A stretch of 64,000 nt of DNA from positions 1-64,000 of the forward strand of contig NZ_SUTJ01000009.1 in the NCBI RefSeq assembly GCF_015062915.1. Reading direction: 5' to 3'. The stretch comes from Methanobrevibacter thaueri. GTDB taxonomy: Archaea > Methanobacteriota > Methanobacteria > Methanobacteriales > Methanobacteriaceae. The position numbers and the translations under genes are program-made. The notes below the pieces were generated by a model. That model had not been told where the DNA came from. It worked only from the letters and a program-made list of their open reading frames with translations, and did no database searches. Positions 52,102-54,116 of the stretch are shown here, piece after piece; positions within the stretch are counted from its first letter, which is position 1; every line of letters begins with the position of its first letter.

Positions 52102-53055
52102 TTAGGAACTCGATTTATTGCTTTTCTTGAGTTCATTAAGTTCTTCACTTAATCTACTTATTTCCTGGTCTTTTTCTTCAGTTATTCTAGTTATTTCCTG
52201 GTCTTTTTCTTCAGTTATTCTGGTTATTTCCTGGTCTTTTGCATATATTTCCCTTTCATATGAGTTCATTTTATCCACTTCCTCGTCTGTGAAATTAACT
52301 GTAATCAAGTATAACAGCTCTTTGGCCTTTTCTAAATCATCACCAAAGTGGTACAGTATCATCTTTTTCAGCACTTGGTGCATATCAATCTTCAAATCAG
52401 GATCAATCTTTGGAAACCTGCTGAAAAGAACGGCGATTTTCTCCATTACATCCTTGGCGTCGCTTTTTACAAAGATTGCAATATATGCAAAATTCAAAAC
52501 CTCATCCACAGTGAAATCTCTTCTGGTTTCAACTATGTCCCTTAAGATATTTAACCTTTTTGAGATTTTTTCAGCGGTCACGATGATGTAATGGACCCTC
52601 AACACATGATTGAAAACCTCATAATCAATCACATCACTTCCGGGGCCTTCGTTGATTATTATAACCGGCACAGAGGGAAGATTTGTCTCATGGGTCTTTG
52701 ATACTGTGTAGAAGAATATCGCATCGATTTTTGAATCGTCCGGAATCTGGGACTGGTGCTCAACAATCGTTGCAGATTTGAGTTTAATGATTTCCCCATC
52801 GGGAAGCACTACAACTCCATGGTCGATTTCCAGATTGCGACCGTCATCTGTGACAACATGAGTGTCCAGTTTTTTCAGGTATTTCCCTGGAAACTCAAAT
52901 GTGACATGTGCGTGCTGCGCCCATCCTGAAACCGTCAACCGGAATGATGAGTCTTTCGGATGATGATTTTGCCCTTTCATGATCTGATCAATAAGTGTTT
53001 TTAGACTTGTCAGGCTTTTGGTTGATTGTTTGACTGCTTTGACTTCTTTTTTCAT
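52102..53055 (-). CDS. Rpn-like PD-(D/E)XK nuclease family protein
   Basis: 317 residues. Motifs SAQHAHVTFEFP-like and LEIDHGVVVLPDGEIIKLKS, with VEHQSQ, recall the PD-(D/E)XK core of Rpn/transposase-associated nucleases: D in EIDH, then E-H-Q. The C terminus is a coiled coil of 11-residue repeats (DQEITRITEEK twice, then DQEISRLSEEL), which at DNA level is a 33-base tandem repeat (52161-52240). The ATG at 53055 follows GAAGG; the frame upstream to 53109 lacks a good start. It may act on DNA in a recombination-promoting or defence role; unproven. Confidence 0.68.
   Translation of the reverse strand: MKKEVKAVKQSTKSLTSLKTLIDQIMKGQNHHPKDSSFRLTVSGWAQHAHVTFEFPGKYLKKLDTHVVTDDGRNLEIDHGVVVLPDGEIIKLKSATIVEHQSQIPDDSKIDAIFFYTVSKTHETNLPSVPVIIINEGPGSDVIDYEVFNHVLRVHYIIVTAEKISKRLNILRDIVETRRDFTVDEVLNFAYIAIFVKSDAKDVMEKIAVLFSRFPKIDPDLKIDMHQVLKKMILYHFGDDLEKAKELLYLITVNFTDEEVDKMNSYEREIYAKDQEITRITEEKDQEITRITEEKDQEISRLSEELNELKKSNKSSS
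52161..52240. repeat. 33-base tandem repeat inside the Rpn-like gene
   Basis: Two full copies and a partial one, starting at 52161, 52194 and 52227, encode the hendecad coiled-coil unit DQEITRITEEK. Copy number could vary between strains. Confidence 0.85.
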
Positions 53056-53470
53056 ATTTAAAACCTTCGTCCTTTTTGATTGCCAATTTAGTGGTGTTGT
53101 GAAAATCAATTTTCACTAAAATTAAATTGAGCAGAAAGCAGTTTAATGTTTATGCTAAATCATATATAAATATTTTGATTTATAATTGATTATATGGGCT
53201 GTATTTTTGATATACATAAATATTAATCTTTTATAAGGTAAAAGCAATATTTTAATGTGAAATCAATATTGATGTCATGAGGTAATTTTAGTCAATGACC
53301 TGAAAAACATAAGACTACACAATATGTGAAAAAAACATTAAAAAAAGATAGCACTCCCAATAGTGCAATTCATCAATGACTTAAAAGAAGTCGTGGATTC
53401 TCGCATTATTAAGATAAAATTATGTTTGTGTTATTTACAATATTTGCCATGAATCAAATCAACAATAATT
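53056..53470. other. Intergenic between Rpn-like gene and micro-gene array
   Basis: A+T-rich. It has a small hairpin (GCACT/AGTGC near 53351-53366). No gene seen. Confidence 0.4.
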
Positions 53471-53519
53471 AAAAAAAAAGCAGTGTTTGTGCAGTTCACC
53501 TCGCATTGGTGTCGAGGTG
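53471..53519 (-). terminator. Terminator of the micro-gene array
   Basis: On the minus strand a hairpin ACCTCG/CGAGGT (within 53497-53518) is followed by a short spacer and a run of nine T (53471-53479). It is the natural end of the transcript carrying the three tandem micro-genes. Confidence 0.6.
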
Positions 53520-53561
53520 TACCTAGCACGTTTTTTCTAAATTCAAAGTGTTTTACATTAA

Positions 53562-53577
53562 CATACTATTCGCCTCC
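53562..53577 (-). pseudogene. Decayed or stub fourth unit of the micro-gene array
   Basis: Minus strand: CACAGGAGGCGAATAGTATG, that is, a fourth ribosome binding site and ATG at the 85-base spacing of the array, but the frame then reads only MLM-stop. The peptide part has been lost. Confidence 0.55.
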
Positions 53578-53598
53578 TGTGTTTTTTTTCGTACGTGT

Positions 53599-53649
53599 TC
53601 ATCCGAATATCTTTTTGAAGAGTCTTGAGAAGCAACCTGTTGGAGCCAT
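53599..53649 (-). CDS. Micro-gene 3: 16-residue peptide MAPTGCFSRLFKKIFG
   Basis: 17 codons including stop. The ribosome binding site GGAGGTGGAG lies 5-6 bases before the ATG. The peptide is identical in sequence to micro-gene 2, though codons differ (GCT versus GCC, GGT versus GGA), so selection acts on the protein. It is cationic and amphipathic with one Cys. No family known to me. Confidence 0.72.
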   Translation of the reverse strand: MAPTGCFSRLFKKIFG

Positions 53650-53684
53650 ATTCTCCACCTCCTGTGTTTATTTTCCATTTGTGT

Positions 53685-53735
53685 TCATCCGAATATCTTT
53701 TTGAAGAGTCTTGAGAAGCATCCAGTTGGGGCCAT
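53685..53735 (-). CDS. Micro-gene 2: 16-residue peptide MAPTGCFSRLFKKIFG
   Basis: 17 codons including stop, preceded by CATGGAGGTGGGTAAT. The product is identical to that of micro-gene 3. In a helical model Phe7, Leu10, Phe11, Ile14 and Phe15 face one side and Arg9, Lys12, Lys13 the other. It may act at a membrane (toxin-, bacteriocin- or signal-like) or as a regulatory peptide. Only three bases of its repeat differ from unit 3. Confidence 0.72.
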   Translation of the reverse strand: MAPTGCFSRLFKKIFG

Positions 53736-53773
53736 ATTACCCACCTCCATGTTAAATTTTTTTTCGTTTGTTT

Positions 53774-53833
53774 TTAGCGGAATAGTTTTGCGATCTTTTG
53801 GAAGAGTCTTGAGAAGCATCCTGTTGGGGCCAT
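53774..53833 (-). CDS. Micro-gene 1: 19-residue peptide MAPTGCFSRLFQKIAKLFR
   Basis: 20 codons including stop, with GGTGATGAAC before the ATG. The first 11 residues are identical to the other two, and the end is extended and still cationic-amphipathic. It is the promoter-proximal member; its start lies about 140 bases from the predicted transcription start. Confidence 0.7.
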   Translation of the reverse strand: MAPTGCFSRLFQKIAKLFR

Positions 53834-54004
53834 GTTCATCACCTTTTTAATAATTCATGTTCAACAGCAGATTACATTTTTTTGATCTTTACGGAAGACC
53901 ATAATGTTAATTTTTGTCACTTGTATTGTGGTGAAGTTCTCATTTTATTTGTGTTTAGAACTTCTCACACCTACTTATTAGTATAAAAAAGGTCATATAT
54001 AAAG
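53834..54004 (-). promoter_or_regulatory. Promoter and long structured leader of the micro-gene array
   Basis: The TATA element CTTTATATATGA (minus strand, 53993-54004) predicts a start near 53974, leaving a leader of about 140 bases, long for an archaeal mRNA. The leader begins with a hairpin GAAGTTCT/AGAACTTC (53957-53964 with 53933-53940). It also contains a 13-codon frame without a Shine-Dalgarno sequence (53902 to 53861, MVFRKDQKNVICC). A regulatory leader is likely. Confidence 0.55.
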
Positions 54005-54116
54005 TTTTTCGAATGTAAGTGGTTACTTGCATCTTAAAATAAAAAAATAAGCAAAATTAAATTGTAAAATCAAAAAATAATAAGTTTAAACTCATCCAAG
54101 AAATAAAGGAATAATT

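Follow-up and report, generated by a model that had tools for sequence, protein, structure and literature searches.

The phenol-soluble modulins (PSMs) of staphylococci are encoded by several genes lying together. The ATP-binding cassette (ABC) transporter Pmt exports them, and loss of Pmt is lethal (PMC5080381). Leaderless bacteriocins are accompanied by transport and immunity genes and use ABC exporters (PMC6131525), and CAAX proteases occur in bacteriocin loci. Among archaea, archaeocins (halocins and sulfolobicins) have been described from haloarchaea and Sulfolobus (PMC4609331); a survey published in 2025, which looked for archaeal homologues of bacteriocins on the basis of known families, could miss a family such as the one presented here. 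That family came to light in a 64,000-nt stretch of Methanobrevibacter thaueri contig NZ_SUTJ01000009.1 (hereafter the window), whose minus strand carries three tandem micro-genes for closely similar short peptides. With somewhat better than even confidence, we read this array and its relatives as a leaderless, multi-peptide, membrane-active secreted system; translation, export, target and the role of a linked protease are what we infer.

The window array consists of the following parts, given in the order of transcription.

54017 to 54028, minus strand: inverted-repeat element AAGTAACCACTT, a candidate operator, immediately 5' of the promoter and conserved across arrays.
53996 to 54011, minus strand: archaeal promoter CGAAAAACTTTATATA with B recognition element (BRE) and TATA box, read from the sequence; the same letters stand in all four arrays of this genome.
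53834 to 53976, minus strand: 5' leader, its putative start about 25 nt below the TATA box; a hairpin lies within it (53969-53927).
53774 to 53833, minus strand: micro-gene 1, peptide MAPTGCFSRLFQKIAKLFR; hidden Markov model (HMM) E=1.6e-13.
53685 to 53735, minus strand: micro-gene 2, peptide MAPTGCFSRLFKKIFG; HMM E=1.5e-9.
53599 to 53649, minus strand: micro-gene 3, peptide MAPTGCFSRLFKKIFG; HMM E=1.5e-9.
53553 to 53578, minus strand: Shine-Dalgarno site (GGAGGCG) and ATG of a fourth unit, 85 nt beyond micro-gene 3, encoding MLM-stop.
53489 to 53529, minus strand: 3' hairpin (GUGC / CACCUCG...CGAGGUG / GCAC), located by folding and pattern search.
53471 to 53479, minus strand: T-run terminator of nine T, read from the sequence.

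An earlier note on this DNA had described the three micro-genes, and inspection of the sequence and its translation bore out their positions, their Shine-Dalgarno sites (AAGGTGAT for the first, GGAGGTGG for the second and third) and their spacings of 98 and 86 nt. Micro-genes 2 and 3 encode the same 16-mer, as it had said, and the TATA box, the leader (~145 nt) and the T-run lie where it had placed them. The fourth start without the peptide is also present; this unit is probably vestigial, and a comparable relic (MHIWF-stop) occurs in another array of the same genome, the 20k array described below. The promoter is the sole TATA-like site on either strand between 53400 and 54150. Thirteen Shine-Dalgarno-led micro-ORFs of 8-40 aa occur in the window, and only these three form a family.

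The 550-nt array unit was found three more times in the window's own genome (G000; 78-86% identity, E down to 1e-139), each time on C11, a 26-kb contig.

C11 7484-6978, minus strand: 7k array, six copies.
C11 20198-20453, plus strand: 20k array, three copies, the first divergent (MAPVLGFAKLFIKIASLFC).
C11 25433-25789, plus strand: 25k array, four copies.

With the window's three, G000 thus holds four arrays and 16 micro-genes. The earlier note had proposed a search of related genomes for homologues, and the peptide HMM matched in two further ones, both uncultured Methanobrevibacter: G042 (RUG11588), with one array of two copies, one of them divergent, and G053 (RUG14185), with one array of two copies of MAPTGCFGKLFKKIFDLFD. 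All three array-bearing genomes are draft assemblies. The HMM recovered 20 copies at E<2e-9, the next match being at 0.02, in 6 arrays from 3 species. The window array is far from chance because the 550-nt unit recurs and the peptide HMM separates the 20 copies from the next match. In a peptide profile search, array-positive genomes numbered three of the 139 in the family and came from one of its 17 genera. An exact-pattern search for MAPTGCF (genome contigs, 106 stretches; viral contigs, 14) returned unrelated frames except in two Methanobrevibacter contigs; BLASTN of the array unit against phages and plasmids and an Rfam search gave no match.

All arrays have a common layout: inverted-repeat element, BRE/TATA promoter, leader of ~145 nt, two to six micro-genes at intervals of 86-102 nt, each led by a Shine-Dalgarno site of its own, and 3' hairpin, followed in most arrays by T's. 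Two further candidates for genes within the arrays were rejected. A TTG-start last ORF before the 3' hairpin appeared conserved, with frames that differ among arrays; antisense ORFs over the arrays formed no shared gene, the longest open stretch being variable, and short in the 20k array. Like the earlier note, we found no described family to which the peptides belong, and the literature searched held no archaeal precedent for such arrays. The three additional arrays of G000, the conserved 3' hairpin, and the exporter/protease module and shared promoter type presented below go beyond what that note had reported.

The peptides are 16-19 residues long, the 16- and 19-residue forms differing by three codons, and length and tail differ among copies of one array. 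Among unique MAPTGC copies (codons 2-14), pS was 0.34-0.40 and pN 0.08-0.09, and variable columns numbered 3, 4 and 9 of 13 each at codon positions 1, 2 and 3; copies within one array share history, and neither set of values represents independent counts. The reading frame is intact in 20/20 copies, the in-frame indel has a length divisible by three, and differences between species spare the hydrophobic face. Since third codon positions are variable and the hydrophobic face is kept, the peptide is under protein-level selection, as had been proposed from synonymous differences among the window copies. Invariant in the alignment are M1-A2-P3, F7, L10, F11, I14 and a near-terminal F; a single Cys stands at position 6 in 18/20 copies. 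After an APTGC cap, the predicted helix places F7, L10, F11, I14 and F/L on one face, with K/R/Q/S opposite. From residue 6, MAPTGC peptides have a helical moment of 0.72-0.81, peaking at 100 degrees per residue (permutation P<0.02); it is weaker in the two divergent peptides (0.53-0.58), with P<0.03 in all peptides. Together with a net charge of +1 to +4, these moments (0.53-0.81 overall) agree with the cationic amphipathic helix suggested earlier. No signal peptide, Sec signal or double-glycine motif is visible in the peptide ORFs.

Behind the 20k array on C11 lies a convergent pair of genes for ABC half-exporters, and beyond it a divergent gene for a CPBP (CAAX/Rce1-like) protease.

L010 587-2350 and 2350-4062: ABC half-exporters, each with ABC_membrane and ABC_tran domains.
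L010 4136-5020: CPBP protease, divergent from the ABC pair.

Gene order in G053 (C111, L262) is identical. BLASTN aligns the two genomes from C11 19969, at the array promoter, to 25014, in the last CPBP codons (~5 kb), with 82.7% identity over the main 4.75-kb segment; outside this block C11 and the G053 contig share array copies and one exporter fossil only. The G000 and G053 proteins are 86% (ABC) and 78% (CPBP) identical, the next best homologues in the genus reaching 61% and 53%, and this exporter and protease subfamily was found in two array genomes only. The ABC pair retains intact Walker A and signature motifs, and the CPBP motifs EEFYTRG, FIIPH and HTIWN resemble EExxxR, FxxxH and HxxxN. 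A domain search found no C39 peptidase domain in the module proteins. Other CPBP homologues in the genus (40-53%) were set aside, having neither a linked ABC pair nor a micro-gene array. So was an ABC exporter-like protein on C11 (L009:16319-18307; two membrane domains, no ATPase domain), which is not array-specific because it is present in 34 of the 67 genomes of the genus.

With its ABC exporter and bacteriocin-style protease, the module looks like an archaeal version of bacterial leaderless peptide weapons. One transcript per array, with two to six micro-genes each led by a Shine-Dalgarno site, would give many molecules of a 16-19-residue peptide. Made without a signal or double-glycine leader, the peptide would be exported unprocessed by a dedicated heterodimeric ABC exporter, which, encoded beside one array, would serve the other arrays in trans. 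Membranes would be its site of action and competing microbes its most likely target, while protection of the producer would fall to the ABC pair and the linked CPBP intramembrane protease; motifs and locus analogy make the CPBP protein a candidate immunity protein. The earlier note had suggested a membrane-active, signalling or toxin-like function: the membrane-active type stands, as a predicted activity, and the link to the exporter speaks for a leaderless peptide system that is secreted. If this is right, a gut methanogen makes and exports ready-to-act membrane peptides, none of which we found described for methanogens, and rumen competition gains a concrete, testable peptide-mediated case in which the exporter and a candidate immunity protein can be named. 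Families of 16-19 codons can escape gene callers, and the array layout with its conserved leader and hairpin could reveal more of them.

By analogy, the arrays likely work like PSMs with Pmt or like bacteriocins of the aureocin A70 type. As in PSMs, short amphipathic helical peptides without a leader are encoded by grouped genes and, putatively here, exported by an ABC transporter; this likeness is one of features. The arrays, in contrast, are archaeal, and their 16-19-aa peptides share a conserved APTGC start in copies that are nearly identical rather than diversified; they are linked to a CPBP protease and to two half-transporters, each a fusion of membrane and ATPase domains, whereas the PSM exporter is the four-gene PmtA-D. 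Aureocin A70 and garvicin KS also comprise several small cationic leaderless tandem peptides adjoining conserved transport or immunity determinants (PMC6131525), and the arrays have tandem leaderless genes, a cationic amphipathic peptide and, beside one array in each of two genomes, an ABC pair with a putative substrate. Those systems are bacterial; here the setting is archaeal, antimicrobial action is predicted and the candidate immunity protein belongs to the CPBP family. Membership in either group is not claimed because length, exporter type or activity fails or is predicted only. Archaeocins, too, are archaeal and act as antibiotics, whether peptides or proteins, but those described in PMC4609331 come from haloarchaea and Sulfolobus, not methanogens, and we know of no relation of the arrays to them in sequence or layout.

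Several points weigh against the secreted leaderless system. The window array has no adjoining exporter, so it must rely on one elsewhere in the genome, and any exporter remnant in its flank was not significant (shuffle P 0.5). G042 has an array but neither a close exporter nor a close CPBP protein, and the intact module occurs in two genomes only. Known multi-peptide leaderless bacteriocins are longer, at 30-34 aa against 16-19 aa here (PMC6131525). The exporter's substrate is assigned from linkage only, since such ABC exporters are common multidrug-like transporters.

Traces of the exporter lie beside other arrays; the flank tests were repeated with stricter gap costs, lenient ones being uninformative for most flanks. 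The sequence upstream of the 7k array includes a fossil exporter 3' end of 120 nt, which scored 377, against a shuffled maximum of 235, and also matches G053 (BLASTN E=4.5e-6). Remnants, each ~40 nt long, lie after the 7k array (shuffle P about 0.004), the 25k array (about 0.001) and the G042 array (<0.001), and on either side of the six-copy 7k array stand similar TTTAGCAAAAAAAG stretches resembling the exporter 3' end. The 5' flank of the G042 array is that of the 20k array (91%) and its 3' flank that of the 25k array (89%), a pattern that recombination between two arrays, with deletion of exporter and CPBP, would produce; the G042 array is thus likely a product of such recombination. The 7k site is empty in G050 (L228:5840-5960 versus L009:6780-7930). 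From the fossils, the mixed flanks and the empty site it follows that arrays come and go and formerly lay more often beside the exporter. Tentatively, at somewhat less than an even chance, we propose a new archaeal class of leaderless secreted weapon or surfactant, in which multicopy 16-19-residue helices go with an exporter of their own and with a CPBP protein for immunity or processing; the class would be restricted to a few gut methanogens and would spread or decay as a 5-kb cassette. The G042 array (L070:5441-6210) adjoins a pdxS-like gene.

Tandem near-identical copies, the linkage of exporter and protease, and the single Cys would also suit a secreted pheromone or quorum-sensing peptide, many copies giving a loud signal that the ABC pair exports and CPBP trims or senses. 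We consider this unlikely: none of the genes in the conserved block was seen to encode a receptor, kinase or AgrB-like protein, so that the AgrB endopeptidase and receptor kinase of an AgrD system are both missing there, and the helix-turn-helix gene beside the G053 module falls outside the block. Conservation, moreover, tracks the helix face and not a short fixed mature sequence, tail and length varying within an array.

The promoter bears on where the peptide acts. In the 67 genus genomes, 44 match the array query somewhere, chiefly at the promoter, and the inverted-repeat/promoter layout also precedes other genes in G000 and many of the 67. In G000 the same promoter type (AAGTNNNNACTT-CATTCGAAAA-TATA) stands before the genes of five small proteins that appear to carry Sec signals.

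G000 C24:217895, C24:221297, C24:190874, C3:9366 and C3:18624 (L011, L269-L271): copies of the promoter type before secreted small proteins.

This promoter type likely marks a genus-wide regulon of secreted proteins, which is suggestive, not proof, of co-expression of the arrays with secreted products. It sits poorly with peptides that bind the producer's own membrane, in stress, dormancy or curvature or as type I toxins, the exporter link being incidental. Peptide size and hydrophobic-cationic character would fit such a role, as would the lack of an intact exporter alongside the window and 7k arrays. Yet a single sense promoter drives several genes, a scan of the window array's sequence alone shows no opposite-strand TATA-like promoter of the kind a type I toxin-antitoxin pair would have, and the conserved block is bounded and includes exporter and CPBP; we regard this role, too, as improbable.

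The leader is strongly conserved (mean column identity 88% in alignment A2), and its covariance model gave confident matches at the six array loci only among the 67 genomes; weak matches in G044 and G021 (E about 0.5) were discarded, no array being there. The leader fold is not proven because the structure has no compensatory pair. The 3' hairpin folds in the arrays tested, with a compensatory change in one pair, and one of its arms is complementary to the Shine-Dalgarno sequence; its pattern is confined to array loci in the 67 genomes and, as written, skips the 20k array because one C-A-C step is C-G-C there. A reading of the repeated Shine-Dalgarno units and the CACCUC/GAGGUG hairpin as functional RNA or as a repeat element, with the short frames as by-products, draws on this conservation and complementarity but is very improbable, as substitutions avoid peptide change, frame and hydrophobic face are kept as described, and the Rfam search was empty.

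Two neighbouring observations concern other genes. The window array adjoins, at 52102-53109, a 335-aa protein with C-terminal EEKDQEITRI repeats and no Pfam or NCBIfam match. In G047 (C201; L273:7970-8400), a similar promoter and leader precede a Shine-Dalgarno-led 14-codon frame, MGWLLYWFTCFFIP, and a strong hairpin; this locus may represent a second micro-peptide family.
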